Below the pieces are notes generated by a model. The model was given only the letters and a program-made list of their open reading frames with translations. It was not told where the DNA came from and made no database searches. A stretch of 64,000 nucleotides of DNA from Chrysaora quinquecirrha (lineage: Eukaryota > Cnidaria > Scyphozoa > Semaeostomeae > Pelagiidae), in NCBI GenBank assembly GCA_014526335.1, contig JACTAT010000060.1, positions 3,217,445 to 3,281,444 on the forward strand, given 5' to 3'. The position numbers were made by a program, and so were the translations under genes. Positions 3,139 through 53,755 of the stretch are shown here, one piece after another. Positions within the stretch are counted from its first letter, which is position 1. Every line of letters starts with the position of its first letter.

Positions 3139-3183
3139 GCGGCGGCATCCTTTGTGCACCAGAACCCGCGTTTTTCCTCTACT

Positions 3184-3870: not shown

Positions 3871-4029
3871 TTCATATATTGACTGGTTTCACGCCTCACA
3901 AGTAAACAAATAAGTTTCGAGATGACTGTGTAAATTGCGCCATCATTTTCCAGATAGAGCCACTCTCTGTTGCTCTCTTTTTCGTGACATTGAGTGAATT
4001 CCCCTGAAATTTGAGGATGGCGTTGTATT

Positions 4030-4130
4030 ACCCGATCGGCCGACACTTTGTTCCCCGATCGAGGAACTGTTACTCGATTTGGGAACTGTTTCCCGATCGG
4101 GGAACTGTTACTCGATCGAGAGAATGTGCC
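4030..4130. repeat. Four about 20-bp repeats with CGATCG palindromes
   Basis: Units read TGTTCCCCGATCGAGGAAC, TGTTACTCGATTTGGGAAC, TGTTTCCCGATCGGGGAAC and TGTTACTCGATCGAG. Each is itself nearly palindromic around CGATCG. They lie upstream of the DUF6589 remnant (- strand orientation), where a subterminal or regulatory array of that element would be expected. Role is inferred only. Confidence 0.55.
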
Positions 4131-6069: not shown

Positions 6070-6372
6070 ATGTTTTGCTCTCTAATTTATCGACGACACG
6101 AAAATCCTCGGCAACTCAGTGAAACATCTGAATTCAACTTTTCCGTTGTGCTACCTTTGTTAAAGGTGTTGAGAACTCTGAAGGCTCGTATTGAATATTA
6201 TCACATGTTAAGATTATGTAATCAGGATAAAATATATTGCTTTATTCAAAAAATAGCTTTAGCTTTGGAATCATTCGTGTATTGTGTTTGGAACATCATG
6301 CCAAAGCCAAAGATCATAGCTTGTATTAATTTCAAGGTTTTTAGTGAAGCTTTTGTCACGATTATTCAGTAG
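6070..6372 (+). other. Unrecognised 100-codon open frame
   Basis: An open frame in AT-rich DNA with no recognisable motif, no signal peptide and no neighbouring coding context. It is probably fortuitous. It is listed only because the surrounding stretch has no other content. Confidence 0.15.
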
Positions 6373-6485
6373 TATTGAATAGTAAAGTTGTGTTATGTTA
6401 TGTCAAGTCTTTGTCTACTCTGATCTGTTTTACTCCCTAAAACAACACATTACAGAACACATGGCGCCCCACGTTGGGCGCCATT

Positions 6486-7016
6486 TGTTGTGAAGATTAT
6501 TTCGTTCTCAGGGCAAGACACAATCAAGGAATACAACTTTATTGTGTTTTATGTCTATTATATTCGCACTTTTTACATCTGAAACCGACAATCCATAATT
6601 CTACTTCGTGACAATCTATGTTGAGTTGCAGTTACGAGTTACGCCCTCTCCGCTGGCCTAAGCCAGGGAGTGGCCACCTGACGTACGTCCTATTCCGTTT
6701 CGGTTCTTTCTGCAACTGACTCTCGAATTCTAAGCTCAAACTGTTATACATACACTTGCTTTTATTTTATTCCCTAATACGTCAGTTACTGATGAAGATC
6801 ATAGATCGAAACGTTTAAAAAAAAGTTGTCTATATTTTTGAAATTCTCTTATATAGTATTTATATATATCTTATTAAGGAACTTATGTCTAATTTATTCC
6901 CTAACACGGTATGCCTGTGCAAAGCGAACATTTCCGCTATATTCCTATTGGCTGATTTACAGCACTGACGCAATGACTAGTGATGGGGTGATAATTGTCC
7001 TTTGATCTATACAGCA
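6486..7016 (-). mobile_element. LTR of a retrotransposon (about 531 bp)
   Basis: On the - strand this starts TGCTGTATAG and ends CTTCACAACA (TG...CA). It is preceded by a polypurine tract (AAACTGGGGGAGTG) and followed at once by a primer-binding-like site TGGCGCCCAACGTGGGGC. Having a polypurine tract before and a primer site after one LTR means internal sequence once lay on both sides, as in a tandem or circle-derived copy. No second LTR was found in the window. Family not assigned. Confidence 0.55.
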
Positions 7017-7117
7017 CACTCCCCCAGTTTGATTGCTTCAGCAATCAAGACTCCTTAATTTACAATTACCAAACCCGAATTTCTACGTACGAGGTATCTA
7101 CTAAATTCTCTACTATT

Positions 7118-7226
7118 TGCAAGGGCCGTTCATTTGGAGCTTGTTGAATCCCTCGATATCGACTCGTTCATACGTGCATTCAAACGCTTTTTTGCGCGTA
7201 GGGGCCTGCCGGCAACAATTATAAGG
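7118..7226 (+). pseudogene. BEL/Pao integrase fragment
   Basis: The + strand encodes RAVHLELVESLDIDSFI, then FKRFFARRGLPATII. This is the conserved segment between the first and second catalytic aspartates of BEL/Pao integrases. The following SDN motif is lost and the frame ends shortly after. It lies opposite in strand to the LTR at 6486-7016, so the two are probably unrelated pieces. Confidence 0.75.
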
Positions 7227-7739
7227 TGTAGGTTGTTGGGAAAACTTACAGAATTAATTAAGAACAACTGTTGGTATCTACTTTTGAAGAAAATCACCTC
7301 GTTTGAGTCTAGCTTCTTTTTTATTTCAATAACGATGTCCTCTAATAAGATAGTGATACACAGTTAATAGGAGATTTCACAGTTATGCTGCAACTATATT
7401 TTGAAAGGACTTTTAATTTTCAAATAATGTTGCAAAATACAACGGCAAGGAGAGGGAATCTCCAGGTTTTAGCAAGCAAATGCAAGCTGTTCCATTCATT
7501 ACACCGGATGGGCCAAAGAACCCCCCCAACTAAATAATCAAAATAAAACCTGTCTTGTGGCAGAATCTTACCACGTAAACTAGAACATAATAAACATATT
7601 TAGTAGAAAAATTTATGCCCTATGCCTATCTTGCTCTTTTACTGGTAGTAGTAATCCAAAGCAAAACTCGGGAATCTCTAGTTCAAATGCAGGCGTAAAT
7701 CACGAAACAATGGAGGTAAAGACTAAGGAGCTTTTTAAA

Positions 7740-8309
7740 CAAACCAGTATGGTCTGAATGTCCTCCGTTTTGTTTTATGCATATTTCAATCCTAATTAGA
7801 CATGCATAGATTGTTCTTTCCAACTTCCGCTAGGAGTCCACGCTCATTCGCATAACGTAGGACTGGACATGTCAGATGTTGCTTTCAGACTCATGGAGCC
7901 CATGGACCAGCTTTTGTTATCAAGTAACGGTTACCATATTGTGTTGTCTCAAGTAACGGTTACCATATTGTGTTGTCAAACAGATTTAAATCAGGGCTAT
8001 TCTGTGGCCACAGGTCATTTGCAATCTTAATGAAGTCAGGACCTTTTAGTCTGGTGGCCAGTTGAGATGACCTTGACATCGAGTACTTATGGGTTTTTAT
8101 TTTATTTTCTGTTTGTATGGTCATAGAAGACTCGAAAAAGCCAAACATGCCCCTTCCAAGTGTTGGGCAAATTTTTTTATGACCTGCCGAATATGCGTGA
8201 TGTCCAAGGTAAAAAATGCATCGAAAAAATTTTTGTAAATTGTCAAAACATGGTGTTGTTTGGTCTCATTCGAATGGAAATCGACTCTAGATTTCGAATA
8301 TAGCATCAA
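7740..8309 (-). pseudogene. mariner/Tc1-like transposase remnant
   Basis: On the - strand near 8060-7960 the sequence GPDFIKIANDLWPQNSPDLN followed by xxDNxIW matches the WPxxSPDLNPxDxxIW block around the last catalytic aspartate of mariner-type transposases. Upstream and downstream frames are broken by stops. An imperfect 33-bp tandem duplication (TCAAGTAACGGTTACCATATTGTGTTG) at about 7919-7978 interrupts the block just after it. Related debris lies at 19285-19560. Confidence 0.75.
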
Positions 8310-8523
8310 GACATCTGATTTTTATAAAAAAAGAATCAAAAAAGAAAACCAAAGAAAAATGTTCTTTGAAAAATTATCTTTAGTTAGTTAGCATAGCTTG
8401 TACGTTAGTAAGTTAGTTAGTTAGCTACTTTGGACGGTACTAAAATAGTAAATAAGTTAGTAAGTTTTTTAATTAGTAAGTGAGTTAGTTAGGTAATTAG
8501 TCAGTTAGTTAGTTAGTCAGTTG

Positions 8524-8558
<35 letters not shown>

Positions 8559-8836
8559 GGGTAGTTAGTTTTTAGCTAGCATAGCTTGTAAGTTAGTCAG
8601 GTAATTAGTTAGATACTTTCGAAGATATTAAGTTGGTTAGTTACTTAGTTAGAAAGGGTAGTTAGTTAGTTAGGTAACTAGTTTGTTATATAGTCATTTT
8701 GTTAGTTAGCATAGCTTGCACATTACTCAGTTAGTAAATTAGGTAATCTGGGAAATAGTAAGTTAGTTATTAAGTAAGTTATTAAGCTAGCTAGTTAGTT
8801 AGTCAGTTAGTCAGTTAGTTACATTGGAAGATAGTA

Positions 8837-8909
<73 letters not shown>

Positions 8910-9538
8910 ATAAATTAGTTAGTTAGTAAGTTAGTTAGTTACTTAGCATAGCTTGTAAGCTAGTCAGTTAGTTAGTTAGCTACTTTGGAAGATACTAAGT
9001 TAGTTAGTCAGTTAGTTAGTAGTTGGTTAGTTAGATAACTACTTAGTTAGTAACTTAGTTAGTAAGATAATTAAATAGTTAGCGAGTTAGTTATTTGGTT
9101 AGTTAGTTAGCGTAACTTTTAAGTTACTTAGTTAAGCTCAAAAATATGATGAGTGTTCCAAGTAATTCTGGCAGGCATTGTAGCTAGTTAGTTAATTAAT
9201 TAACTAACTAACTAATTAATTAACTAACTAACTAACCAACTAACTAACTAGCTAACTAGCTAAAACTCTAACTAACTGACTATGTAGCTAAGAAACTAAC
9301 TAGCTAACTAACTAACTAACTTACTAACTAACTGATTAAATAAATAACTAACTAGCTAACTAACTAATAACTATCTAGCTAGTTATCTTACTAACTAGCT
9401 AACTAATAAAGTAACTTACGAACCACCTTACTACCGTTTAAAGTACCTAACGAACTAACTGACTAATTTACAAGGTATTCTAACTAAGTAACTTACTGAC
9501 TATCTAAAAACTTAACAAGCCAGATAACTGAATAACTC

Positions 9539-9585
<47 letters not shown>

Positions 9586-10397
9586 TGCAAGCTATGTTAA
9601 CAAACTAACAATCTGGTAAACAAACTTATTAACTAATTAACTAACTTACTAACTAACTAATTAACTAACTAACTAGCTAGTTACCTAACTAAGTAGCTAA
9701 CTAGCAAATTAACTCACTAACTTACTATCTTCTCAAGTAGCTAACGAACTAACTTACTAACTGACTTACAAAATTCGGAAATAGCTAACTAACAAACTAA
9801 TTAACTTACAAGCTATGCTACTTAAGTAACTAACTAACTAAGTAAGTAACTACGTAACTAACTAGTGATAAGACTAACTAATAAAACAAACTAACTATTT
9901 AACTAAATAACAAACCAACTAATTAATTACCTAACAAACTAACAAAAAAACTAAATTTAACTAACTAACTAACTACTTTGCTAACTGGTTTACTAACTAA
10001 CTTACTATTTTCCAAAGTTAACTTGCTAACTCACTAACATACAAGCTATGCTAACTAAAAATAATTTTTCAAAGAACATTTTTCTTAGTTTTCCTTTTTT
10101 GATTTTTTTGTAAAAATCAGATGTCTTGAGCAATATCTTTTGATCTATATCTACAGAAACTAACCTTAATGCTATATTCAAAATCTAGAGTCAATTTCCA
10201 CTAACAATACCATGTTTTGACAATTCATGAAAATTTTTCGATGAATTTTTTTACCTTGGACATGACGCATCTTCGGCAGGTCATAAAAAAATTTGCCCAG
10301 CACTTGGAAGGGGCAAGTTTCGTTTTTTCGAGTCTTCTATGACCATATAAACAGAAAATAAAATAAAAACCCATATTTACTCGATATCAAGGTCATC
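8066..10397. repeat. 2.3-kb palindrome with tetranucleotide core
   Basis: The outer 320 bp on each side are inverted copies: GATGACCTTGACATCGAGT...ATGTTCTTTGAAAAATTAT on the left and its reverse complement ending AAGGTCATC on the right. Between them the left half is TTAG/GTTA-rich, and past a centre near 9190-9230 the right half is AACT/CTAA-rich, so the whole is one diverged hairpin. The arms include mariner transposase debris. Confidence 0.85.
8385..10065. repeat. TTAG/CTAA microsatellite with higher-order units
   Basis: About 1.7 kb dominated by (TTAG)n then (CTAA)n. Embedded landmarks recur. AGCATAGCTTGTAAGTTAGTCAG appears near 8390, 8580, 8711 and 8946, and inverted near 9585, 9810 and 10045. 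GCTACTTTGGAAGATACTAAG appears near 8423, 8603, 8821 and 8980. The array therefore amplified as units of roughly 130-240 bp, with the tetranucleotide expanding inside them. Confidence 0.85.
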
Positions 10398-11757: not shown

Positions 11758-14700
11758 GTAAGCATGTCATCTACAACAACTTTTATAATCACTTTTATGA
11801 GGCATTTCAAAAAACAGACGACATTTTTGAACTTGTAAGACATGTTTCGAATTACATTAATTCATCTTCAGTTACAATGTTGAACACTACAAAATTGTGA
11901 AATATAAAGGCAAAAATACATCATTATAATAACAAAGCGACACGTTGAAAAACAAAAGCGTAACAAGATCGGTAAAGATTAATCAAAAAACTGGGAAAAG
12001 AAAGATAATGAGAACTAGAGAAACATAGTTGCAAAGCTCAAAGGGATAAAGTTAAATTATAATGAAAAAGTTGCTTATTGAGGGTGGGTTTCTCGCAGTT
12101 AATATGTAGAGCTTCCATAATTTTTAACTGAAAAGTGGTGTTAGAAGTATCTAAAATTTTAAAACAGTCTAAGCTATTTAGAGGTCGGCAAGATGGGGAC
12201 TCTTGCAGGTGCTGAAAGATGTGAGAATTCCTATCCCGGGATATATGCTCACGGACACATGCAGAATGTTTGCGCAGGATGTAATTCTGCATCGTATGTT
12301 GGTGAAACCAGCCGACATTTCACAATTTTGTAGTGTTCAACATTGTAACTGAAGATGAATTAATGTAATTCGAAACATGTCTTACAAGTTCAAAAATGGC
12401 GTCTGTTTTTTGAAAATGCCTCATTAGTCTAGCCTTATTCAGAAAATCAGATTTATATTGTTTCCTCAAATCTTTCTTCAAATTCTTGAAGAGTTGGTAA
12501 GAATCCAGTTTAGCGGTCCCTAGTTACCTGTATTATTGTAATCTTACTGTATTTTGATAACGTTCGAAATAGCGCGAGCAGAAAGAACGAGAAATAAAAA
12601 ACGCGACTGGCGGTGAAAAAAACTTTTTTGTTCAAAAACATCCCTTTCATGAACAGTTTTTGTCATTGCAGGTAGGATTTGAGGTAAATTTGCAAATTCT
12701 GCACTGTTAAAGCGGGGGTTTGGGGGCGGATATTTCAGTAGGCCACATAGATTTAACAATCCTGGTAACTAGGGATCCCTAAACTAAACTGCAGTTGAAC
12801 CGAAGATTTAGATACTGTTTAGCAGGCCCAACTCTACACCAGCTAGTAAGACAGCTAATCAAAAATTCATTTGTCACATGAAGTCAGTAAGAAAGAAACC
12901 TATTTGATAAATAAGCGAACTTCTATTCTTTCTAAAATTATAGCTGATAAATCTTATCTTCAATACCTTATCTTGGATTTTAAACTGGTCTACATCCTAC
13001 TAAGAGATGAAGATTTAAATGCTTAGAACTCAGTCGTCCACCATCTTAATTTGAGTTAGTTCTGTTTCAGCTTGCACTGACCATATGTCCGACTGCGGGA
13101 CAAAAAAAGCAGCTGGATATTGTCAGAATCCGCTGTTTAGAACGCTGATGAAGCTTCATTGCAAGAAATCATGTGGTTACTGTAAGTATTCTTCTTTCTT
13201 ACACTTTTTCAAATATTTACGTTTTCTTCTTTGACATGTCTACAGATTGTCTGGATGAATGTTCGTGGCTTCTGCCTAACAATCATAAAAATTATTGCAT
13301 AAAGAACAGTAACTGACTATGGTTTATAATGTGAGTTGATCATTGTGGGCCATCCTGTTAGAGCTAGACTTTTTGACTGTTACCGTTTTTGGAAAAAAAT
13401 ATGTTGAGAATTTGAGAAAAACGGTTTCTATCATTACGTCAGGCTAAAAAAGAATGCTAATTAACTTGAGTCGTGTTTTCTTCAAAGGCTGTGTTGACAT
13501 CATTTCTTCATGTAGCAGTTTGAAAATGCTATGCATCTCAGACTCTGTAAAGAATATGTGCGGAAAAACCTGTGGTGTATGTGATCAAGGTAACATTTTT
13601 TACTTTGGTCAAGACTTTGATATTTTAAATAATAGTTAATGCACTGATTATTTTATGTCAAAATAAAGAAAGAAGCTATTCCCTGCTCATGCCTTTGTGC
13701 CTATACCATGTAAACGTACAAGAATACCGCATTCACACTGCAATTTAAAACGGTTTAAATTTAACCAGCTTAACAAATGTTGCGTTCGGAATGGTCATTC
13801 CAGGGATTTGAATTGATTTGATTGGTGTAAATTTGACCTGGTTTAAATAAAGCTGGTTATAATATTTTGAGAGATAGAGGAGCAACAAGGAGACACCGCG
13901 TGTTCACAACATAACATAACGAATCTCTCCTCACTACACACGTGACAGTGTAACACAATAAACTATTTACATAATGACATTACAGGGAGTCCAGAGTTCT
14001 TACTCACAACATTACATCACTCCCCTTTTCAGAAATCGTTCTCAGGGTATTAAACTTGATGGAATAAAATTTCCATAACGTTCAGGTGGTCTTCTGGATC
14101 TCGATGGGCGACTACTACCACTAGTTGACTGCGGTTCTTGTTCATTCTGAACTTCAATACCATTTCTGACGACTGTATCTTCATACTCACTATCAATATC
14201 ATCTGAGGTATCGACATTCGAGTTATACTTCTTGAAATGTGACACATTTCTTGTTATTTTGTGTTTTTCCTGATTCTCAGCCGTTATTTGCGTTCCTCTT
14301 ACTTCTATTACAGTGTACGGCGTTTTGTTGAAGCGAGACATGATCTTATTGCGTTGTTGTTGTTTGACTAATACAGAATCTCCAACTTTGATTTGAATCT
14401 CTTTCGCATGACGGCGTTTATCAGCATAAGACTTATTATACAGTTGACTCTTTTGTTCATTTTGACGTGCTTCTCTATGTCTATTTACAACAGTTTTTCT
14501 CTCGATGGTTGGTAGTTTACCCTTAACTTTTCGATTAAATAAAAGTTCGCTAGGAGCGACTTTTGTCGTACAATGCGGGGTTGAACGATATTGAAGCAAG
14601 AACCGATTTAATTCTTGTCTCCATTTCTTCCCTTCGACAACAGCGGTCTGGATTGCTTTCTTCAAGGGTTGATTAAACCGTTCAACTTCTCCATTGGCTT

Positions 14701-17700
14701 GCGGCCAATAAGGTGTTACTGACTTGTGTTCAATACCGAGAATGTTCAAGTATTTGCGAAAATCTTCACCATTGAAAGGTGGTCCATTGTCTGAAACAAT
14801 TTTGTCAGGAATGCCATGAACTGCAAACATTTTATCCAATTTTGGTATAACACAGCTGGCTTTGGTAGAGTGTACAATCTCCACCTCTGGGAAACGCGAA
14901 TAACGGTCGATGACGACTAGCAAATACTCGCCGGACGGTAAAGGTCCACAAAAGTCGATATGCAAAGTGTCCCATGGTGCACTTGGCATCGCAGATGGTT
15001 TGAGGGGTGCTGGAGGATTTGGTCTTCCAACAGCCTGACATGCTAAGCATGCATCAATGGTGTTCTTCACCAATTCATCGATTCCAATGAACCAAATCTT
15101 TTCACGGAGTAAGGCTTTAGTCTTAGCCAAACCCTGATGACTCTCATGAGCAATATCGATAGCTCTCTTCTGTAGTGACTTTGGAATCACAAGTCTGGAG
15201 CCTCTCAGAATAACATTCTGGAGTCCAACGGTAAGTTCATCTTTGAATAAACGATAAGGTTTTACCGTGTCGGTGTCCCATTTGTTTAATCTTATAGCAG
15301 CACGTAAAGCCTGTAGTTCACGATCGATATTAGTTGCGTCAGCAATCTCTTGTAAGCTCATAGCTCTAGGTACACTGTGTTGAACAACAAAATTGATATA
15401 CTGCTCAGTTAAATCTTCCTGAGTTTTTGTACTGCAAGAAACAGGGTGCCTGGAAAGATAATCAGCTGGGTTGTCCACTCCTGGCCTGTACATAACCTGA
15501 AAACTGTATGGTTGGAGACGCAAGACCCAACGTTCAATCCTAGCTGAAGGCTTTGAATTGTGGCTGCCATATATTACTTCCAGAGGCTTGTGGTCAGTGA
15601 TCAGTGTAAATTTATTACCATACAAATACAAATGAAAATGTTCAACTGCCCACACTATGGCTAATGCCTCTTTCTCCGTTTGTGAATAGCGTTTCTCAAC
15701 CTCTGTTAATGCTCTACTTGCATAAGCTACAACCTGCTCGTCATCAGAATCAGGTGATTTTTGCGATAAAATGGCACACAGACCAACTGGACTAGCATCA
15801 ACTAGAACATAAGTTTCTTTACGAATATCGAAGTATGACATGCAGGGTGCAGATGATAAAGCCCGTGTCAATTTATTGAAGGCTTCTTGGTGTGTTTCAG
15901 TCCACTCAAAATGAGAATTCTTTTTCGTCAAGGCTCGTAGTGGCTCTGTGATTGTCGCATAATTTGCTATATACTTGCTGCTGTAGTTAGCCATTCCCAA
16001 AAGACTTCGTACATCATGTACATTCTTTGGAAGTGGTGCATTCAGCAAGTCGTTGACACGTTTTGGATCAGGTCTAGTTCCATCTGCAGAAAATATTTGA
16101 CCAAAGAATTCAAGTGTGTTCTGTAAGAACTGACATTTGTTTTTGTTCAAGGTAAGACCTCTATTGTGTAAACGAGATAAACAATTATCCAAATTATCAT
16201 CATGCTCTTTTCTAGATGCACCATAAACAATTATGTCATCTGCAATGTTCTTTACGCCTTTTAGTCCTTGCAACTGTGTCTGCAACATGTACTGAAATAT
16301 TTCTGCTGATGCATTTGTTCCATAGTTCAATCTTTTATATCTATACAAGCCAATATGCGTAGAAAAAAGTGGTGATATGACGAGACTTTTCATCCAATTC
16401 AATTTGATGATATGCTTGCGAAAGATCAAGCTTAGTAAAAAAATTTTGCTCCATTTAATGCAAAACTAACATCGTCAACAGTAGGAATTGGGTGTCGCAC
16501 ACGCTGAATGGCTTCATTTGCGACTCTCATATCTACACATATGCGAACAGCTCCATCCTTCTTAGGAACTACGACGATTGGAGATACCCAAGGTGTCCCT
16601 TCACTTTCGGGTACTTTTTCAATAATATCTTCCTCTTCAAGCTTCTTTAAGGCATCTTTGACCTTTTGTCTGACATGGTATGGAATCCGACGCTGAGGTT
16701 GTACTCTAGAGGGCTTGCTTTCATCAATGCTCAGGGTTGCCTTGTCACCCTTTAATTTTCCAAGTCCTTTAAAGACCTTTGCATGTTTATTCACAATAGC
16801 AGACAATGCTGAATCTTCAGTGGATATACTGTTGAGATGCAAACTGACAAGGTGAAGATCTTGAGCTGTGGAAAGTGACAAAAGATTTCCACTGTTGTTG
16901 CCCTTGACAACATGAAATATTGCTTGAGCAATATGCTTCTTGGTTTCAATTACGGCATGAAATTGTCCAAGAAATTCAACTGGAGTGTTATTATTGTAAG
17001 CAAAAGCTCTAGTTTTTGTTTTCTTCAATTCAACATCTTTCATTTCTGCAAATGTGTTTTGATCAATGACATTTATTGTGGCTCCAGTGTCCACAGTTAT
17101 TTTGAAATTATGTCCACGTACCGTGACATTAACAGTAGGACTATTAGATCTCTTATTGTGACTCATAGCATACAAATATCCATCATCAGATGAAAAGTCA
17201 TTGTCAGAGCTGTCTTCAATGCAGTTGAGGGCTTTCTTCCGGCCATTACGATGTCTACTTGATTGCTGCTTGTGATTGACATTGGAAGCTGTTTTATTTT
17301 TACAAACATTTGCAAAGTGGTTTTTCTGTCCACAGACACGACATTCTTTTCCTTTGGCTGGGCATGTTCCTTGATGAGGATAATTCCGACCACAAAAAAA
17401 AACAGTTGCGTTTCTTAGTGTCCACTCTGTTAGTTTGTTCAGTGACCGGTTCTTTCGATTCAATAACTTTGGCCTGGAAAGCACTTTGCTCGTCCCTTCG
17501 CCCTTCAAGCAACATTGCTTTTAGGTCAAAAGTTGGATCTCGTAAAGCTCTTCGGCGAATTTTCGAGGACGCTCCCCCGATAATAATTTGCTCCTCAAGT
17601 TCAAAATTAGTATCCTGGAACTCACAATTCTGTGCTAAAGTTCTCAGTCTTGTATGAAATTGATCCAATGACTCGTTGGCTTCTTGTCTAGCCTGACGAA

Positions 17701-20700
17701 AACGATAGACTTCATATCGTCTATTCTTTTGTGGCTCGAAATATTCTGACAGTTTCTGTTTAGCCACATCGTAATCTGCAGCAGTGCCCGTATCAGATAA
17801 CTGATTAAAAATTTCCCTTACTCTTGGACCAGCTTGATATAACAACAATGCACGCTTACGTGTGTTATCTGTGATCCCACTAGCAGTGATAAACATATCG
17901 AAGTCAGCCAGCCAATCTCGCCATTTTAGGCCTAGGCTTGCTCCAAGCTCAATGTCTGGATTAAATTCAGCAACCGGCCTGATTGAAACAGACTGAGCCA
18001 TGATTTGAACAGGCTGTGCAGGTTCAGTTTCTTCCATCTAGAAATTCATAACTTAAACTCGTCGCCAATATAATATTTTGAGAGATAGAGGAGCAACAAG
18101 GAGACACCGCGTGTTCACAACATAACATAACGAATCTCTCCTCACTACACACGTGACAGTGTAACACAATAAACTATTTACATAATGACATTACAGGGAG
18201 TCCAGAGTTCTTACTCACAACATTACACTGGTTTAAATGTGTCAGTGCGAAAGCAGTATAAATCTTAAAGTTCAAAACTAGCTTACGCTCCTAACATAGA
18301 AACTTTTATACATATAACTCTGGTTAAAATGAATTTTCTTCACCATTCTTTTTGGGTTTTAGAAAAAGAGTCGTTATTATAATTGCATGTTAATATCTGA
18401 ATACACATTTTGAAGTCGAGATTAGATGTTTATCAAACTCAAGAGAAAGATACAGCAAGAACGACTATCCATCCCCTATATGCATCATTCCAGTGCATGA
18501 ATCAGTGAAGTTTGATACGTCTGATAACCAGCGCCTATAAACAAAATTCTAGTATATAATGCGAGATCACCGAGAAAAAAGAAAAAGAATAAACAAATGA
18601 ATGTTCATTTTGTGCATTGTTTAAAAGTCAGAGCAATCAAAACTCAGGCCCCGTTTACACTATACCGGATAGCTTTCGGAGCGTCTTGATTTTCGTATCG
18701 GATAGGGTTTGTGTTTACACTATGCCAGAGCTATCCGATACGAAACGCTCCAAAATTGGAGTGATTTTCACTCCGTTTTGTAGGTGATATGAAAATCACT
18801 CCACTCCGGATGTAATTTACATTCTTTTCTGACAGGGGTTTAAATATTGAAATATTCTATTGTCTCGGCTGTCTGGTATTATTTAAATGGGTCTATCCGT
18901 ATGAAAATCAAGACGCAACGATAGCTATCCGGTATAATGTAAACACTTCCCCTATCTGATATGGGTTAAGGCGAGGCGCGGCGCTCCGATAGCAATCCGG
19001 TATAGCGTAAACGGGGCCTCAAATATCTGATGTCATAAATGAAGGTGTAACGAAACCAGGCAATGACGTAGTTTGGTTGAACTTTGAACCTTTACTTTAT
19101 TATTCTTTTATTATGCAGATTATAGTTAGCTTTTGGCGAGGACTTGAGATTGTGATTTGTATTATGTTTAGTAGTTAGTTCAAAGTTTGAGCTCAAAAAT
19201 CAAATCGTTGTGAGTTTGTTGTCGTTGCAACCATGCTTTACGCGTTCGCGACAGGCAACAAGCAAGGTGCAAAAATGATCATTTTTAACTAGAGAATATA
19301 GTCTGAATGTCGTTATGTTCTTTGCATGTTGCAAACTTTGCTAGCAATGCACTGATTGTTCTTTCTAATTTTCGCTTCAGCAAGAACTGCATGCCAATTA
19401 GCGTTGCGTAAAAATTGGGTATGTCAGAGGTTGCTTTCAGACACATGGAACAACCTTTCTTAATTGATGATTGCAATACTGAGTTGAAAACAGATTCTAT
19501 TCAGGGGCTGTTTTGTGCTCACTGGAATTTCTCAATATCAATGAAGTCAGGATCATTTTTTTTGAGGATTATTTTCTTTCAGTTCAGTGTGTAGCAGGAT
19601 TATACTGCCGATGCAGTAACTTTTTTTGGTTTCGTTACAGCCGTATTAGTGACTACAGGTCTTTACGTTTGAATTACTCTGAGGAAACAGCGGTTCAGGT
19701 TTTCACTGTTCCCTAAAAGATGTTTATTAGGTTGATATCTGGTTTGAGTTTCGCCACGTTTTGTGGAAGGAATGATTTGATATCAATTATATTGCTTGGA
19801 GAGGTTACTTTCTTTGGCCTACCAGATAAAAATATTAGATACGATGAAAAACAGACATTACAGCTTGGAACTCAGCCTTTCCATGTTGACAAGCTTCAAA
19901 AAAGTAAAGGAGTAACGAACGAAAGAAGAATATGACACTAAATAAATCTACTGGTAAAACACTTGATGAAGCAGGAAATCAACTAAATTCCTTGGTTTTG
20001 TTAGCTTCTCTTATCAATCAACCATCTTGATAGTTTTGGAAAAAGTAAATATGTTGAGGTATGTGAAGAAAAGAGAATAAAAAAAAAACGTTTCTTGCGT
20101 CTAATAATATTACATGATATTTTAAATACCAACTATAGCAATATCGTCTTGTAGCTATAGCACTGTTGTGTATCCATTTCACTTGGCCTCATATGCTCTG
20201 CGACGAAATTGTTTATGAATTTGATTAGTTCAACAGAGAAACTTAACTTAGCTACGGCAACAAGAATTATGAAAAACTTTTGTCATGAATATTACAGGAA
20301 GCTGTGGACAACCAGAGGTACAACAAAGCAGAATAATTGCAGGCGAGAATGCTACAAGAGGTGCTTGGCCATGGCAAATTCTTATGTTCCTCAACGGGCA
20401 GACTTTATGTGGCGGATCCCTCGTGTCGCCGAAATGGGTTGTTACGGCTGCTCATTGTGTTTATGGAAATGAAGGCTCTGCAAGCCTCTTCAAAGTGCGG
20501 TAAGGGCTGTTTTAAACTGAAACTCTGATAATAACTATAGTTTAAGGCTACAGAATGTTGAGACGCTAGATTTCGAAAAGCATTAGGAATTTTCTTCCTG
20601 AGAAAGAGCAGTTTGTTGAAAGCTGTTTCTAAAAGAATTTGATAACATCCTAGTTAGTTGTCATGTGTCTCTGATTCTTCGAAAGTGAGTGAGCAAAATA

Positions 20701-38870: not shown

Positions 38871-39176
38871 GATCTGCAAAAGACGTGGCTCTCGGAATGG
38901 TCTGCTTTGCAAGATCCACTCGGCGATGTAATAGTGCCTTGGATAACTCTTCCTTGCTTTGATTTTCACTTCCCCGATGAGGAAAAGAATTACAGATATC
39001 TGTTCAAAAAAGACAATTCAGCAGGCAAGGCTGTTGCCACAAAAATTTAAAGTTCTGGCGCAGTCTGAACTGTGGTTAATCTCCCCCTTTGTGCTCATGC
39101 CACTAGCAACCTTACGATATACATAAATAGAACATAAATAGAACAGATTGATAAGTCCAGCAGGATACGGAAATAC

Positions 39177-39263
39177 TACCCTGGGTACCAGAGCCCAAAA
39201 TATAAAATAACTTAAAAAAAAAATAAAAAGAGAAATAAGAAAACAAATAGAGGCTCTGGTACC
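39177..39263 (+). repeat. Left terminal inverted repeat
   Basis: Outer 19 bp and inner 14 bp match the right end inverted, with an A-rich spacer between. Similarity continues weakly to CTCCTTCTGGTG at about 39290. CCAAT boxes (39299, 39344) precede the helicase start, so promoter activity here is likely (inference). Confidence 0.85.
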
Positions 39264-39421
39264 ATCGTACCGCATTCTCCTTCTGGTGTGGTTTATTAAC
39301 CAATCAGCAGCTTAGATCCCAGAAATGGAATCTTTCACCGATTGGCTACTTCGTCTTACAAACGATCGCTGATCGAATCATCGAATCACCATCGATTCGC
39401 AGACAGGCAAGTTGTTCAGTA

Positions 39422-42400
39422 ATGGCGGATATGGAGTATGAACTGAAAGTTGCTGTAGACAAAGCCGTGCGCGTTTTTTTTCCGAAAGTCAAGAAGCTAT
39501 CAGATCAACAGTTTGAGATTCTGAAATCAATTTTTGTTCTAAACAAGGACACATTAGCGGTATTACCAACGGGGCATGGAAAATCTTTGCCGTTTCAGAT
39601 TGCGCCATTTGTTGCGAAGGAATTAGGCCTAGGCTCAATGAGGGAATTTGATATTATAAGGAACAGGGACATTGTCCTCGTCATTTCACCACTACTGGTT
39701 ATTATGGATTTACAGACGAATATGCTAAATAGCATAGGTATTGCTGCGTGCTGCCTTCACGACGAAAGTGTAGATATTAATGACCTTTCGGCTGGCAAGT
39801 TCCAGGTCATTTTTGGCACCCCAGAAGCATGGGTCAAAACTGACAAGTGGAGACAGTTGCTTGGTTCAACCATTTACCAAGATAGAGTACTGCTGCTAGT
39901 CGCAGATGAGGCTCATTGTGTACCCAAATGGTAAGCTTCTTTTTATTATGCTAGGCCTAACCTTTTGTCTTTGAAGGGAGATTGAAGACTAGTCTATATT
40001 CCATCAGCTGTCTTAAAAAAAAGCTCAGAATATCACCGTTAGCTTCAATCCTTAATAATACCACCATTGCCTTCAATCAGTAATTACAAAAGTAACCAGC
40101 TTAGAATAGTCCTACATAGGCAGTACAGTATAGTGTTATGTTTATTGGTACTTCTTTGCAAGCTGCTTCCTTAAACCTGTTAACCAAGAAGCCAATGAGG
40201 CCACATCAAGTCTTGCTAGTAGATTTCTTTCAAAGCCCTTATATTTCTCATGCTTTCTGCCATTTGTGTATTTGAATATGTCTTTTGATACGAGATTGCC
40301 AACAAGATGGTGCAGATCCACTTCTTTTACTTTCACTTTGTGATGCCCACTTGGAACTGTAAGATGCATATCTTCATCAATTGATTGCAGGATCTTTTCA
40401 AGAAAACCTATTGCCATTGATTCACGTTTAGCAGCAGATTCATTAAGATTAACACCTAAGTTTTGTAGGAGCTCCTTTGATAAGCGATTGATCTGCTCTA
40501 ACCTTAGGTCACATGATATATTCCTACCCCTACCTCCCTTTCGATTAACAGTTCTGTTCCAAACAATTTGGTGTGCTTGGGCTTCAGTGAAGATTGCCAT
40601 AACATTTGACTGCAATAGAAAGGATGCAATGGCGTACTTGTGATGTCCATATGCCTTGTAGTACAGTAAAAACATCTTCCAGCACCTCATGATCCTATCC
40701 CCATCACCCTCCTTGACTGCATCATCAGCATTTCTTATAAGCAGGCCAATATTTAGTCTTGCTGTGCAGTAGTTGAAGATATCATCTGAAGAAGAGGAGC
40801 TTTCACTTGTTTCCCTGGCACTTGCCTCAGACTGACTTTGAACAGAAAATGAATGGACTTTCTCTTCGTGGTTTCTCCTGACTTTATCGAATCTGTATAC
40901 TTTGGGGCAGCCTTGGTGTCGACATACAAAACCATTTCTTGGCTCAGACAGGGCTGCCATGTTTTGGTGAATTTCTGATGCATCCTTTGAATGTGACTCA
41001 ACTATGTACTGGAGTATCATCTTTTTTACATGTCCGTTTAGCCATTCAAGTTTCGTTTCTTTGCTGCCATGCAGAATGGTTGGTGGTATGACGTCCTCAG
41101 GTGATGCCTTGAGGTTTTTAATCCCAAAATATTGCATTGCTAAGGTGATTAATAGGGCATCAGTTTCAAAATTAACAAATTCTTTGCATTCATTAAATTT
41201 CCCCAGAACATTTCCTCTGGCATTGCTATTGCGTACAAGGTTCATGTTATACGTCATGGATGCAATGTCTTTTGCTGATTCAGCATTGAAAAATGCTTCA
41301 TATAGTATCTGAAAAATAATAAAATAATGCTTTATTATGCAAAATCCATTATATATGGACATGAAACTTGAACTGTTGAATATGGAGAGGATTACTGTAG
41401 ATTTCAAAAGACAACACTATCATAATTTCACAAAACAAGCAATTTTCGTTTTGAAAAGCAGTGCCTTACCAGGGGAGCTTGTTGTGCATTTTTATAATTA
41501 TAGTATTCTTCATGAACATTTGATGCACTGAAAGAATATTAAAACAGGTGCACTGAAATTTTCCCTCCAAAATCTATGATTAACAGAACTATGCCCTGGA
41601 AATTTGTAATCTTATTTCCAACCTGATACATGTAACGTATTGCATGCCAATCTTCATTTTTTGGTATGATACCAGTCAGGTTTTCGTATTCCGAATCTCC
41701 GTCTGACATGGCACCCTGTAGATTACGTGCCCTTTCCTCTGTCAAATTGTCTCCTCCCAAGAAAATTTTTCTGATAACTGTTTTGGTCTTTTCTCCTCCA
41801 TTGTCTTGTTCGATGATAGGGACATAGTTTTCTTGGATTGACTGCAGAATCTCTATCATTTCTGCTCCAATGGATTCGTTCTTCAATAGGACCCCAAGAG
41901 GCACCTGTAACCAAGATGTTCTTATGTATATATCATTTCAATTGTTCTCAGTATAAGTAGAGCTCTTATTGTATTCATATATGCAGCAGTAAGAAGGCAT
42001 CATGCGATGAGAATTTTCTAGAAGTCTCCATGCATGCATTAAACATAACTCTTTCTTTATATGTGAGTAAAATGTTGAAGTTCAATCAAGTCTGTACTAC
42101 ACATACCTCCTCTGATTTCTGTGACATCTCTGCAGAGTACTTGTGTGGAATGTGCCGTAAAACCAGACTTTTGAACGGATCAAACGCTTTTATGTTATCA
42201 ACAATAACCCTGCTAACCAAAGGCATCAAGTCATGGAGCAGTTCCATATGCACGGCTTCATCTGGGATAAACTCTTCATTTCTAAGTGAGGATGCTGGCC
42301 TTTGCTGCTGTTCATTATCCAGATCTTTTCCAGTGACTCTCAGTGGTAAACCCAACATGTTAAACCAGTGAATTGATCTGTTAAATATATAGACTAACCA

Positions 42401-44809
42401 TAAATGTTGCTCATAATGAAGTAAAAGCCAGAAATATATTTGATTGGAAATTAAACATTTTAATGAAGTTTATGAGCTTGGGAGTTAATCCAACAAATCT
42501 GACCCTTTTCCAACTCTACTCCAATATCTAGCAAAACCTGTTTTGAAACTTTGCAATGATTCCATTGTATTATCTTAACTGGTAAGCTATTCCATTGATC
42601 AACAGAACAAATGAGTTTAAGTAAATTGAAAAATGATGATGAAAAATGATACAAAATGAAGGAGAAGAACATATTTCTCCAATCAGGTCATGCTAGTCTT
42701 GTGTCAATGACCTGTCATCCTGCATTTTTCATCATTGACAACAAACTTGGCTTCTCATTGTCATCCTATTAGAAATTGTACATCGATTTTAGCATAATCC
42801 AAAGAATGCTTACTTGTTCTGATTTTCACTGGTCATGTGCTTGACTTTAATGTAGAAGTCCAAGTTATCTCCAATAATCTGGTATAGAGAATCTGCCATA
42901 GATTTTTCAAGTTGCTTTTTTGAGTGAATCATCTGTTCAAATTTCTTTACCTCTTCCTCCTTTGAGTCTCGGGCCATCAATTCAAATTCCTTGGTAATGA
43001 GTGAAAGTAGTGATGCGTTAGATGAGTTAGTATCAGTAAGCCTTTCAATGCCACCTCTAGTACCTTTCATTAGCTCTGTCTGTACGAGTGCAATTTGCGT
43101 CTCATCCACATATGTTATTCCAGTTTCCCCAGGTGATTTTCCAACACAGTCCCAGAGCTTCTTTGACTGTTTTTTCATGTCTTCCTTGATCCTGACGAGT
43201 TTCTTTCCAAGATCTTCAATGGCCTCTTTTTGTCAGTGATAATTTTGTCATGATTGTGACCTGCTGCCTGGAGCTTTGCAACCACTCTCTGTCTGCTCAT
43301 ACATACCCCATATGAAGATAAACATTTGTATGCCTGAAATTTGATGGAAGTAAATTTTAACCTTGATCCTTAATGATATTAATACATTTTTCATTTGTTT
43401 AATATTATATCAATGAATATTTCCTTTTAGGGGTGATTTGCCTGCAGAAACGAATAGTTCGTCAAAGAGAAGTTTGAAGGAGATGAAGAAGGCCTTTCGT
43501 GATTGCTATGCCAAACTTGGCACTCTGAGGTCCCTTTTTCCAAAGGTGAAAATGCTTGCGTTAACAGCAACTGCAAATAAAGAATTAGAGAAGAAGATAG
43601 TGAAGTCGCTTGCAATGGACTCGTTCACAATGATAAGGGTAAGCCGAACAGACTTAACATTCGTCTTGCATCAATCAAATGTGCAAAGCTAAGTCCCTCC
43701 ATCCTAGATTGGTTAGTAGGAAAACTAAGGCAGGAAAACAGGCAGTATGAAAAAACAATAATATATTGCCAGAGCATCGAGAATGTCTCTAAAGTGTATG
43801 TGTATCTGAAGGAAGAGCTTGGTCCAGATGCATATGATTCTTTCAAAAAAGAAAAATCAGCATGTTCCTTGTTAATTGGCATGTACCACAGGAAGACATC
43901 AGAGAGATATAAGAAAAGAGTCCTTGATGACTTATCTGATGTGGATGGTTCATGTAGAGTTGTAGTGGCAACAACATCGCTTGTAATGGGCATTGACATC
44001 AGTGACCTCAAGTGTGTAATACATTATGGATCCCCAAGTGAAATAATTGATTATATACAAGGAATAGGAAGAGCAGGAAGAGATGGGAGCAGTGCCGCAG
44101 CAATCCTTTACCACTCAGGACATCAACTATCTAAAGCAATGCCAGAAATGAAAGCTTATGCAAAAACGAAAACATGCCTTCGTGTCGCTCTGTATGGATG
44201 TTTTGATGTCATTGCAGTAAAACTCCCAGCACAAAAACATGAATGCTGTTCCTTTTGTCATTCGGCATGCATTTGTGAAGGAACTGGACCATGCACTATT
44301 TCAAGGCCAAATTATGAGGAAATCTCTGATATTGCCAAACAGAGTGCAGTACGAGTCGTTACTGAGGAAGAGAAGCAACTTTTTTCAGAGGTTCTCGTGG
44401 ACTACAAGTCACAACAGGACCAGGAGCACCATAATCACATTTCTTTCATGGGTAAAGAGTATTTCATAGGTTTGTCTGCAACCATGATCAAGGAGATTGT
44501 TGAACATGTCCCATTTATTTCCAATTTGGAATATGTTCTTGAGCATACTCCTGTATATTACAAAAAGCATGCAGGGAAATATTGTTCATGCTTCAGGATA
44601 TATTTGGAGACATCAGTGAAGAAGAACAAGAGAAGGCAAATGAAGCTGTTTGCACAACAAAGGAATCGCTACAGGACGCAACTTTGCCTGAGTGGTTGTT
44701 GGATATAGATTCAGATGAAGACAGCATTGAGCATGAGGTAGACAACAGCCTGGAGGACTTTTTTACAGATGTACAAGAGATTGGAATTTGTGACAGTGAT
44801 ATAGATTAG
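39422..44809 (+). CDS. RecQ-like superfamily 2 DNA helicase, two exons
   Basis: Exon 39422-39930 encodes motif I TGHGKS, VLVISPLLVIM and motif II ADEAHCV. A GTAAGC...TTTTAG intron runs to 43430. Exon 43431-44809 gives motif III LALTATAN, motif IV IIYCQS, motif V ATTSLVMGIDISDLK, motif VI QGIGRAGRDG, then a Cys-rich finger (ECCSFCHSACICEG) and an acidic tail ending at 44809. All helicase motifs are present, in RecQ order, in about 630 residues; the RQC/HRDC domains of cellular RecQ are absent. One-base breaks sit at short A runs near 43656 and 44578. It probably unwinds DNA during transposition. The large intron holds four exons of the opposite-strand gene. Confidence 0.85.
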
Positions 44810-46742
44810 TTGGCCTTAATTAGCAATTACAGTATTTTAGTCCTGTTATTTCTCTCTATGTAGCCATGTACTAGCCAACCTGTAAATCAATTGATTATTA
44901 TTACTATTGTATATTCTTCCTAACCTATCAAAAAATTGCCCAAAAAAGAATCAGTGATCATTGAGAAGATGATTACTAAAAGATAATCTTAATAAACACT
45001 AATGTTTTACTGTGCAATGTTGAATGATAATAGAAACATTTATATTTTCATCAGTAGCCATCTTCCCAGTGACCATAATTAATATTTCACCATAATTTTT
45101 TTAAATTAGATTATATCCAAGTCTCTAACTTACCCTTTTTTAGCTCCACTGTGATGTAAAACTAGTGAACTTCTGTATGCCAATGCACTCAAGGTAGGGC
45201 TTCTCATCTTCATTAGAATTCCAAATGCCATTGCAAGGGTACAGAGGCTTTGATCTTTTACTTGACCCTCCTTGATCTTCTTTCTTCTTCTCCGGGATAT
45301 GACTGAGTTTTTAAGGGCAATGTATAACACTGGAGCTCGCTTTTGGAGTTCGCCAACAACATCTTCATTTTCAGGCTCAAAAGATCTTCACAGTTGGTTT
45401 TGGAAAGTATGCTAGGGTTTTTCACACTTACAACTTCAGACACTTCATCCAAAATTTTGTCTTCAAACCATTTCAAAAGACAAACTTTTAACTTGTCATG
45501 CTCTGCAATCTTTTTTATTACACAGTTAAAATCTCCAGTGGCAAGGGATGCTATAATGGATGATGTACCAGCTGATTTTATCTGAAATTGCTTGCCCCTG
45601 ATTTAATAATTGATCTTAACCTAAAAATTAGATTTAAGAAAACAATCAAACTTGAGAAACTAAGAAAGTAATAGAAACTAAGAAAGTAATAGAGAATACT
45701 ATGCAAGGAACATTTGTAACTTATTCTTAGAAATAGAAATTGAAAATTTCCTTGCTTACCCCTATTTGAAATTGGGGCATTTGGGCCCCCAGTCAAAAAA
45801 CTGATAGATATAATTTTCCCCAATTAAGAGCCATGAATATGGCAGCAGGTTTTAAAGAAATTGCTATGCTTGTAGCATATATAATTTTGAAACAATAAAA
45901 GTGCAGTTAGTATAGGCCTGATGATCTATAATTTTCTCACACTTAATAATATGTCAATCATATTATGTTATGTTAGTAGTGATAATAAGTATACAATAAA
46001 TAACAGCTCCAACAATATTTTGCTGTGTTTGAAAATTCCTTTTCAAATTTATCATTTGGATAGTAGGCCAAATTACGAGTTTCTCGTAAAGAATATTCCG
46101 TCTACCCTCCGTTAGCATAATTGTCCTTCCTCCCCTCCAAAAAAGGAAACAAGGCAATTGAAAAGTACATACATCTACAGCTGTCAACGTTGGTTGTCTT
46201 TCATTACACAAATCCACATCTTTGAATGGCAAGTTCTCCTGGTCGATTAGAAAAGAACACGATTTTTTTCTTGTGTTGTGTTCGGTAGTAGCAGCAATCT
46301 GCACGTTGTTCATTTGCAACATCTTTAAGGGAGGGCCAGCTTTGTGAGGAGATTTCGAACATCTTTTTGTTCTGTATTCTTGTAGCGATGATGATGAATG
46401 TGACTCAGTGAGATGGCTTAGTATTTCATCAAAACCTTTCTTGAAGGCAGCAATTTCATCCAACGTTTTTACAAACCTGCATATCTTACTATGACAGCTC
46501 TTACAGGACACCGCGGATTGCAATAATGGTCGAGCAACATGTTTGACTTCTGAGAAAACTTTTCTAATTTTGTCGTAAAAATCACTCTCTGAAGAACTCT
46601 TTAACTTTCCAAAGATCTTGTATGCAGGCCTTCTACCATTTGCAGAAAAATTTAAATTGCAGAGGAAGCACGAAAGGCTATTATCATATATTTCCTTTGG
46701 ATCTACCCGAGGATATACCTTCACTGGCGTTTTATCTGTCAT
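40142..46742 (-). CDS. DUF6589 protein, six exons (putative transposase)
   Basis: Exons 46742-46173, 45581-45134, 43333-42814, 42377-42107, 41904-41623 and 41308-40142 join in phase (one 3' border, CAG|GTTGGA, is weak), about 1085 residues. Exon 1 has CFLCNLNF and CKSCHSKIC, a zinc-binding start. DUF6589 landmarks: HIPHKYSAEMSQKS, VPLGVLLKNES, FLGGDNLTEERARNLQ, EDWHAIRYMYQ, ILYEAFFNAESAKD, a C2H2-like FVCRHQGCPK, then EGDGDRIMRCWKMFLLYYKA and NISCDLRLEQINR. Acidic residues in conserved places (GGD, DWH, CDL..E) could be catalytic, but I cannot assign them. Frame breaks of one base lie in T runs at 45368-45371 and 43227-43231. It starts just inside the right end, opposite to the helicase. Confidence 0.85.
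42460..42672 (-). pseudogene. Possible LINE 3' scrap in a DUF6589 intron
   Basis: Encodes ICSVDQWNSLPVKIIQW, resembling the terminal R.V..WNSLP..I motif of LINE reverse transcriptases. Short, with no other landmark. Confidence 0.35.
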
Positions 46743-46910
46743 ACCTATCCAAAAGAAACTAATTTTCTCAGCTTTTTAATTTCCCGCTTTTTCATAGCAT
46801 CGCATTCACATTTGCATGGTGATGTCATTGAGTGATTCCTGACATCTGTGATTTCTCTAAAGTGATTAGTGCTTCCGTTCATTGGCACGAGAAGGAGGTT
46901 ATTGACTGAT

Positions 46911-47002
46911 GGGACCAGAGCCTCTCTTCCTTCCCCCTCTTTTCATATTTTTATTTTATTTTATTAATAAGTGTTCTATTTTTGGCTCTGGAACCCAGGG
47001 TA
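46911..47002 (-). repeat. Right terminal inverted repeat
   Basis: GGGACCAGAGCCTC, a T-rich spacer and GGCTCTGGAACCCAGGGTA form the inverted partner of 39177-39263, followed directly by the CGGAAATAC duplication. Confidence 0.85.
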
Positions 47003-47399
47003 CGGAAATACCATAATTTTTTTCAAAAAGCATCACAAGGAACTTATCAATCAGGGGCAATCAGGTTGCCTGTGTTACGTTACCAGCCGGGCGTCATAAT
47101 CTCCCTCAGAAATTGTTGCTTAGGCTATCAGCTAGTTTGATAGTGGCATGATCCGCTTCCAACCAATCAAAAAGCAAGAGGTTATGCGCCCCCAAAATCT
47201 ACCTCACAAAAACCGAGTGCAAATTTTCCAAGGCCTCTTAATCTTGTTAATTGAGCTGAACGGTTCTTAGTGTAGCGAAAGTATTCAAGCGAAGGGTATT
47301 CATTTGGAGTATGTATTCTGATATCTCATGATTCCTAAGTCCAACTCTCGTTGAAGCAAGCGTTGCTCAACTAAAGCCAGCACATTATTTAGCTTCCGA

Positions 47400-51639: not shown

Positions 51640-53755
51640 TGTGATTGGTCCACCTTAGATGCTGCATCGGCATATTGGTCCATGCCTTTAAATGAAAACG
51701 ACCAAGAAAAACTGCATTATCAGTGCCACATGAAAAATTTGAATTTAACGTGACACCCTATGGTCTTCGTAATGCAGGAGCATCGTATCAACGCTTCATG
51801 GACATATGTCTTTCTGGACTGCCTACCGACCGAGTATTAGCGTACATGGACGATATTGTTATTTTTACGCCAAATTTCGATTCACACATACATCAGTTAG
51901 ATTCCGTATTCAAATGTCTTCGCTCAGCAGGTATCACATTGAAAGCATCAAAATGCGTCCTTGCTCATGAAAAGGTTGCCTTCCTGGGATACGAATTATC
52001 AGCTCGCGGAATTCAGCCTCAGCAAAGATTGACAGATGCTATTCGTGATTTCCCTTGCCCTACTACAAAAAAGGAACTCAAAGGATTCCTCGGACTCACA
52101 GGGTTTTATCGTCAGTTTATTCAAGTCTTTGCAGAAATCAGTAAGGCCCTAAATCGAGTAACTAACGATAGCGTCGTCTATACCTGGGACCAAACATGTC
52201 AAACTGCATTTACGACCCTCAAAGACAAGCTTTGTGCAAAACCAGTACTAGCATTCCCACGCTGTGGTGAGCCATTAATGGTTGAAGTAGATGCAGGTAA
52301 CGTAGTTGTGGGTGGAGTACAAGTTCAGCCCACCCAGTTGCTTACTTCTCACCAAATTAACCAAATCTCAAAGAAATTGGTCAGTACATAGCAAGGAAGC
52401 ATATGCTCTTTTAGTTGCAGTCCGTACTTGGCATGTCTATTTAGCTGGAACCTCCTTCGTCCTACAATCCGATCATAACCCACTCGTTCACATCAGGAAT
52501 ATGAAAGATCCACGGGGAAAATTCGCACGTTGGATCTCCGAATTAGAAGAATATGATTATTCAATTACCTATCAACCTGGAAAACATAGCGCCAAAGCTG
52601 ATGCGTTATCGTGAACAACCACATCAAATGAAGATCTAGCGTCATTTGAGACAATCTTCGACGACAAAGTTTACTGTATTGGATTGGCCCAACCAAGAGA
52701 TTAGTTGCCAACGGAAGTTCTGTAACTAAAGGTAGACTAAAACGCGTCGCTAACCAACTCCAAATAGAGGATGATGTCCTGACAAAATCTGGTTGTCCAG
52801 TACTGCCAGCATCATTACGACGTTTCATAATATCTAAATTCCACGAAATGGGTCACTTCGGTATCGACAAAATGCATGCTGTTATCAAAGACAGATTCAA
52901 CTGGCCAAACATGTTCGCGTACTTAAGACATTCATCAGGAATTGTCACGCTTGTCAACAAGCAAAAAGTGATCGCCAGACTCCAAAAGCACCTTTACTAC
53001 CTCTTTTTGAACCTGATGCGCCCATGCAACTAGTATCCATTGACAAAGCCACCCTGCCTGAAGATGACAATGGTTATAAATACATCCTACTCGTAGGAGA
53101 CGTTTTCTCGAAATACATCGAAGGGGTACCCCTTCAGAATCAGTCAGCTTCAACGGTCACATCAGCGGTCCTCAACTCATGGATACTAAAACACGGCTGT
53201 CCTTCTTACCTTTTATCCGCTCAGGGGTCTAATGTGGAGGGACAAAACATTCGCAAAATGTGCGACAAGTTCAACATCAAGAAACGCATATCATCCGCTT
53301 ACCACAGTCAACACAATGGTTTTGCGGAGAGAAACATCCGGAACATTCGTGAAGTTTTCCGCACAACGCTACTAGATCGAGGTATTCCTCAGGAGCGGTG
53401 GCGCTCCATGTTACCAGAGGTCATTTTTGCATTGAATTCAACGGAAAGCTCCTCTACCAAGTGTACGCCCTATTATGTTGTCTTTGGGGCAAAACCTGTT
53501 ATGCTGCAAGACCTGTTGCTCGATAAAACCTCAGTTTCGACAGAAACAGATGTACAGTCTCCTAAGGAGTTTGCAACAGAGCTAAAAGTCCGTCTTGCAG
53601 AAGTCTACAAGCATGTTGCATCTCAACTCAACCTTACTCGCCAACAAATGCAAAAGCAATACAATAAAAATATTTGTTTTCATGAGTATCGGCCAGGGGA
53701 TAAGGTTTGGTTGCGTACTAAGTACTTCAAGACAATGAATCACAATCAAACCTAG
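51640..53755 (+). pseudogene. Ty3/gypsy pol fragment (RT, RNase H, integrase)
   Basis: Starts mid-RT at STLDAASAYWSMPL, then TPYGLRNAGASYQRFM, catalytic YMDDIVIF, RNase H (VEVDAGN..., SKEAYALLVAV, QSDHNPL), integrase zinc finger (HEMGHFGIDKM ... CHACQ in another frame) and integrase core. The core first Asp is in VSIDKATL and the Glu in NGFAERN, but the second Asp is Ala (LLSAQGSN for LLSDQGSN), so it is inactive. Frame breaks lie near 51712, 52390 and 52930. No LTRs were found. It stops abruptly at 53755 against the Penelope-like remnant. Confidence 0.85.

Follow-up and report, generated by a model that had tools for sequence, protein, structure and literature searches.

A mutation-damaged, multi-copy DNA transposon of Chrysaora quinquecirrha with interleaved genes for a RecQ-type helicase and a DUF6589 protein, a putative transposase

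The window analysed here is a stretch of 64,000 nucleotides from Chrysaora quinquecirrha (assembly GCA_014526335.1, contig JACTAT010000060.1, positions 3,217,445-3,281,444 of the forward strand). Positions 39177-47002 of this window, 7,826 bp with inverted ends at both sides, are occupied by a multi-copy but mutation-damaged animal DNA transposon, which carries a helicase gene and a gene for a protein of DUF6589, listed in Pfam as a family of unknown function (Table 1). The element is flanked on both sides by the exact 9-bp duplication CGGAAATAC. Its outermost 19 bases (39177-39195 versus 46984-47002) are inverted copies of each other with 1 difference in 19, the end sequence beginning TACCCTGGGT[A/T]CCAGAGCC; the inverted likeness of the ends reaches some 87-92 bases, with mismatches and gaps farther inward. 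When the 19-base pattern was searched with up to 3 mismatches, either base being accepted at its one differing position, the window gave 2 matches, both at the ends of the element, with 0.01 expected. Matches to Pfam, all above its cut-offs, identify DUF6589 (PF20231) on two open reading frames (ORFs; E 1.4e-26 and 3.7e-7), and the DEAD (PF00270, E 8.3e-10) and Helicase_C (PF00271, E 6.7e-18) domains of the helicase. The ends, the target duplication and both genes, which a first-pass annotation of the letters had described as visible, are thus all present.

Each end also contains a second, inverted CCAGAGCC box, 12 bases long on the left and 8 bases long on the right. An inverted inner box pair occurs in 6 of the 6 ends of three families (the window family and two others, L057 and L058, described below) and in neither of the 2 ends of the derivative L021; by chance, an inverted pair of at least 8 bases was obtained in 47 of 1,000 shuffled ends. 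A search for the box pair with a gap of 20-50 bases found no match in the DNA, because the true gap is larger. Folded as single strands, the left end has z = -5.7 and the right end z = -0.4, no better than shuffles, and hairpins were therefore rejected as a general trait of the ends. Since only the left end folds beyond shuffles, the inverted boxes are likely protein-binding sites rather than hairpins.

Table 1. Features of the transposon, in coordinates of the window.
Feature	Position	Strand	Basis
Target site duplication, left copy CGGAAATAC	39168..39176	.	letters of the window
Left end, imperfect terminal inverted repeat of ~87-92 bp	39177..39268	+	end-to-end alignment; matched elsewhere in its own genome
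Inner box GGTACCAGAGCC, outer copy, left end	39184..39195	+	sequence; 12 bases
Inner box, inverted partner, left end	39252..39263	-	sequence; 12 bases
Helicase exon 1, DEAD half, ends ...DEAHCVPKW	39422..39930	+	PF00270; donor site; start codon from sequence
Helicase intron, 3.5 kb, encloses DUF6589 exons 3-6 of the other strand	39931..43430	+	splice motifs; identical splice site in second family
DUF6589 gene exon 6, C2H2-like finger (by eye), candidate catalytic Glu in DLRLEQ	40142..41308	-	PF20231, E 1.4e-26
DUF6589 gene exon 5, second conserved Asp in GGDNLT	41623..41904	-	Pfam match, splice motifs
DUF6589 gene exon 4	42107..42377	-	sequence, splice motifs
DUF6589 gene exon 3, first conserved Asp in GDNLD; frame broken near its 5' part	42814..43333	-	sequence, splice motifs
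Helicase exon 2, Helicase_C half and cysteine-rich tail; frame broken at ~2 places	43431..44809	+	PF00271; sequence
DUF6589 gene exon 2, frame broken, limits approximate	45134..45581	-	sequence
DUF6589 gene exon 1, cysteine-rich N-terminus, limits approximate	46173..46742	-	sequence; 29% identity over 146 columns to the P0007 N-terminus
Right end, terminal inverted repeat partner	46912..47002	-	alignment of the ends
Inner box, inverted partner, right end	46915..46922	+	sequence; 8 bases only
Inner box CCAGAGCC, outer copy, right end	46984..46991	-	sequence
Target site duplication, right copy CGGAAATAC	47003..47011	.	letters of the window

We searched the window's own assembly (328 Mb, 740 contigs) with the left 95 bases of the element and obtained 15 matching places, 11 of them at 98% identity or more, the window's own included; the other 14 were taken with their surrounding sequence for inspection. 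Two hold near-full-length copies, L009 (7,626 bp, exact duplication CTCAAATGG) and L012 (7,817 bp, exact duplication CTTGCGGCA), whose identity with the window element over the aligned bases is 99.23% and 99.56%, respectively. End-only derivatives of 155-162 bp are represented by L018 and by two L017 elements (161-162 bp, the second being also L016). Both ends and an exact 9-bp duplication are thus present at five distinct places in addition to the window. They amount to four independent insertions, because the two L017 places have a single duplication in common and are part of a block of 4.1 kb that is itself repeated. The L017 derivative with its 9-bp duplication is found at C467:4488115 and at C467:4492259, 4.1 kb apart, and since the same derivative with the same duplication is present twice, the block was probably duplicated after the insertion. 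No complete end pair was found within the stretch inspected for L010, L011, L013, L014 and L015. Four diverged elements (L019-L022) have 81-84% identity at the left end; duplications are exact over 9 bp in L021 and L022, have 1 mismatch in 9 in L020, and are poor (8 bases with 1 mismatch) in L019. The 665-666-bp derivative of L020 (C508) and L022 (C152) has the same left flank on each of its two contigs, which suggests that a segment was duplicated or that the assembly contains both haplotypes.

Together with the two further families, exact 9-bp duplications are seen in nine distinct insertions (window, L009, L012, L017, L018, L021, L022, L057, L058), and none is TTAA. The possibility that the locus consists of two host genes between a chance inverted repeat, which has no observation in its favour, is at odds with the 0.01 matches expected for the end pattern and is refuted by the other copies with duplications of their own; we regard it as vanishingly improbable. 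The first-pass annotation had indeed called the locus a mobile unit rather than host genes, and had tied this claim to the existence of other copies with the same ends: both are borne out by the recurrence of the left end and by the four independent insertions.

The helicase is of RecQ type, as judged from the nearest solved structures: RecQ4 is the sole match of the window ORF at E 1e-10, and RecQ/WRN/BLM are the nearest structures of a relative, P0024. Another relative from a different public contig, P0015, is 100% identical over 83% of the query and has an open ORF where the window copy is broken. The DUF6589 protein has a relative on another public contig, P0001, with 98% identity and 55% of the query covered, and predicted proteins of the DUF6589 type occur in corals, a hydrozoan, a lancelet, a sea star and fish; viral contigs scanned with the query P0006 gave no match. 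In a predicted protein of Sardina pilchardus (P0038) the DUF6589 part is fused to PF00632, which we take to be HECT, as a result of either a gene-model fusion or a captured domain. The window itself contains a second DUF6589 fragment at 3088-3888 (-), with PF20231 at E 3.8e-8 and only 22% identity to the element's own protein over 85 columns. A search of a literature library returned no paper naming DUF6589, and a single, unrelated paper under PF20231.

The arrangement of the two genes is unusual for a transposon. Each starts close to its own end of the element, and both read inward on opposite strands, such that helicase exon 2 falls between DUF6589 exons 2 and 3, while DUF6589 exons 3-6 lie antisense within the 3.5-kb helicase intron. 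The coding exons of the two genes do not overlap (limits rounded by one or a few bases). The exon limits were drawn from the sequence and splice motifs, and the transcripts would be spliced as given in Table 1. A literature search for transposons whose genes are interleaved or interdigitated gave no pertinent paper among the matches listed.

Both genes are damaged in the window copy, the reading frame being broken at about 2 places in each, as judged from the translations. Thus, an initial description of the element as near-complete holds for the DNA but not for its function; likewise, both genes had been correctly named, but their interleaving on opposite strands and their broken state had been overlooked. 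We compared the five long copies (window, L009, L012, L011, L013) by automatic mapping of the window exon map. Some of the exon limits so obtained are misplaced by a few bases, and L011 and L013 are without part of the right side, so that the counts of disruption are approximate. None of the five has a DUF6589 gene that is both complete and undisrupted; L009 has open helicase exons, and the remaining four have disrupted ones.

We have also studied the pairing of the two genes across the genome. The searches scored 102 of 261 candidates for DUF6589 and 93 of 312 for the helicase (query P0015), and therefore the counts are lower bounds: at least 103 DUF6589 matches (at least 101 loci after merging) and at least 96 helicase matches (at least 83 loci). 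No DUF6589 match was obtained in 14 control genomes. Of the 83 scored helicase loci, 51 have a DUF6589 locus at a distance of no more than 10 kb, with 0.51 expected by chance; the two are on opposite strands in 51 of 51 pairs, which involve 51 of the 101 scored DUF6589 loci. When the linked helicases are at least 41% identical to the query, the Helicase_C half is 5' of the DUF6589 match in 19 of 19, as in the window; below 41% identity it is 5' in 6 of 32 and 3' in 26 of 32. Helicase loci with at least 41% identity are without a linked DUF6589 in 13 of 32 instances, one of which is the internally deleted copy L014. In a subset of 30 DUF6589 loci taken with 1.5-kb flanks, a match to a helicase query was present in 17 and absent in 13, while the reversed sequences used as control gave 0 matches. 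The DEAD exon is 3' and on the opposite strand in 10 of these 30, including the window and its copy L028; of the 19 loci that have the window layout, 12 are in this subset, and the DEAD exon is found in 10 of the 12, the other two being L031 and L033.

Two further families were read whole, and in all three, the window family included, the helicase travels with DUF6589. L057 (element 417-7988, exact duplication GGTTAGGGC) has outer ends as in the window. Its helicase exons at about 691-1181 and 4688-6056 have the DUF6589 exons on the other strand between and beyond them; its helicase intron is in the same codon, has the same length of 3.5 kb and the same flanks (AAATG/GTAAG ... CAG/GGGTGA) as that of the window. 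The interleaved antisense layout is thus kept despite divergent proteins, the helicase pieces being 56-61% identical to those of the window family and the DUF6589 pieces 40-69% by exon. In the distant family L058 (element 345-8060, ends TAGCCTGCGTGCAGACTTTAC, exact duplication ACATTGTTC) DUF6589 and helicase are convergent, with no interleaving. Opposite orientation thus holds in all 51 linked pairs, while interleaving, present in L057 but not in L058, seems to be a trait of the clade that includes the window element.

A first model of the DUF6589 protein (13-sequence alignment A1, target P0002) had a predicted local distance difference test (pLDDT) score of 55 and was discarded. Profile searches of PDB sequences with the DUF6589 alignments A1 and A3 gave weak matches to unrelated proteins only (best E 0.046 and 0.42). 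The predicted model of the protein of a coral relative, with a pLDDT of 84, has a Hermes/P/RAG-like fold, and its best matches are the DDE transposases Hermes, P element and ISCth4, with moderate scores. The DUF6589 alignment also has three near-invariant acidic positions; the candidate catalytic acids of the model are D305, D466 and E780. Because of this transposase-like predicted fold, the conserved acids and the linkage to a helicase in many loci, DUF6589 is very likely a transposase and the RecQ-type helicase its partner. The suggestion of the first-pass annotation that DUF6589 is the transposase, for which it proposed a fold prediction, is supported by the same three lines of evidence.

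It could be objected that the transposase activity of DUF6589 is a prediction from the fold, and that this protein and the helicase might both be passengers, with a different transposase moving the element. We consider this very unlikely: a Pfam scan of nine element ORFs showed no other recognisable enzyme, DUF6589 and helicase co-occur in divergent families with 9-bp duplications, and the best structural matches of the DUF6589 model are transposases. If DUF6589 is the transposase, the protein would bind the inner box pairs of both ends and bring the ends together, cut the element out, and join it to the target at nicks staggered by 9 bases. The helicase would most likely open or remodel the DNA ends or the transposase-DNA complex, allowing gaps to be repaired; it may act in opening the ends, in remodelling the finished complex or in aiding gap repair, and the first-pass annotation's proposal that it helps strand separation may likewise hold. 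Cut-and-paste elements do not usually have a helicase as a standing partner, and the part played by the helicase leaves room for a replicative (copy-out) movement, in which it would unwind the element for copying. The fixed-length 9-bp duplications, the inverted ends and the Hermes/P/RAG-like predicted fold point instead to double-strand excision, although they are compatible with copying too, and we hold the copy-out mechanism to be rather improbable.

The assignment of DUF6589 as a transposase would explain the unnamed predicted proteins of corals, hydrozoan, lancelet, sea star and fish as mobile-element proteins, and a transposase with a standing helicase partner raises a testable question, i.e. 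what the helicase contributes to DDE transposition. A more specific proposition, to which we give even chances, is that DUF6589 constitutes an unrecognised DDE transposase family, one clade of which has fixed an interleaved two-gene layout with the exons of each gene in an intron of the other. If true, interleaving would tie transposase and helicase together, and their expression would then depend on the splicing of two overlapping antisense transcripts.

Other repeats are present elsewhere in the window. A foldback element at 457-3185 has arms (504-1461 and 2138-3094) that are 98-99% complementary around a 676-base loop, and includes an Asp-rich ORF at 1588-2082 (-). At 8066-10397, arms of 151 bases, 93% complementary, surround a dense array of imperfect inverted repeats (about 8660-9860). 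A Gypsy-like retroelement occupies 14042-18037 (-); its part at 14042-16465 contains domains of reverse transcriptase, RNase H and integrase, and the adjoining ORFs were recognized by eye; ORFs at 51696-53755 (+) resemble, by eye, another reverse transcriptase and integrase.

Among known systems, the element is best compared with AcademH, reportedly described by Kojima in 2020 (Mobile DNA 11:15). AcademH is a DNA transposon of animals and fungi. The literature attributes to it a helicase and target duplications of 9-10 bp, to its sister lineage AcademX a nuclease and 3-4-bp duplications (both PMC10045372), and to the Academ superfamily as a whole a DDD/E transposase (PMC9587614); the AcademH reference is cited in PMC8290104 and PMC12210899. 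The window element resembles AcademH, as described, in its helicase gene (DEAD and Helicase_C, nearest structures RecQ-type) and in its 9-bp duplication, exact in the window, L009, L012, L016/L017, L018, L021, L022, L057 and L058. It differs from AcademX in having a helicase and 9-bp duplications, and no nuclease family was found in the nine element ORFs scanned with Pfam. Among the matches listed in a literature search on Academ there was no paper with an Academ transposase sequence. The best filing would be as a new AcademH family, assigned by the described traits (helicase, 9-10-bp duplication); the first-pass annotation had offered AcademH as the nearest concept, and the published traits (PMC10045372) fit. 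Overall, we consider it quite probable that this is a damaged transposon of AcademH type, with DUF6589 as its DDE/D transposase and the RecQ-type helicase as standing partner.

The element might instead be a helicase-carrying Kolobok, similar to KolobokH. The Kolobok target duplication is TTAA, and this reading is disfavoured because the duplications here are of 9 bp, exact and non-TTAA in nine distinct insertions; moreover, no other transposase family was found in the nine ORFs scanned. KolobokH does combine a DDD/E transposase with a RecQ helicase, and in a Kolobok of a red alga the RecQ gene lies on the complementary strand, but KolobokH belongs to the Kolobok superfamily and is described from fungi only (PMC9587614). 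We judge a Kolobok origin to be highly improbable.

The transposases of Hermes (hAT) and of the P element have 8-10% sequence identity to DUF6589 in structural alignments; hAT and P elements make 8-bp duplications and are not known to have a helicase gene, whereas the duplications here are of exactly 9 bp. The RNase H-like core of hAT and P element transposases is interrupted by a helical insertion. Helitrons also carry a helicase, and are described as moving by single-stranded transposition with an HUH nuclease/Y1 transposase (PMC12730594); the window element differs by its inverted ends and 9-bp duplications. In the light of these comparisons, what may be new is the assignment of DUF6589 and the interleaved layout.

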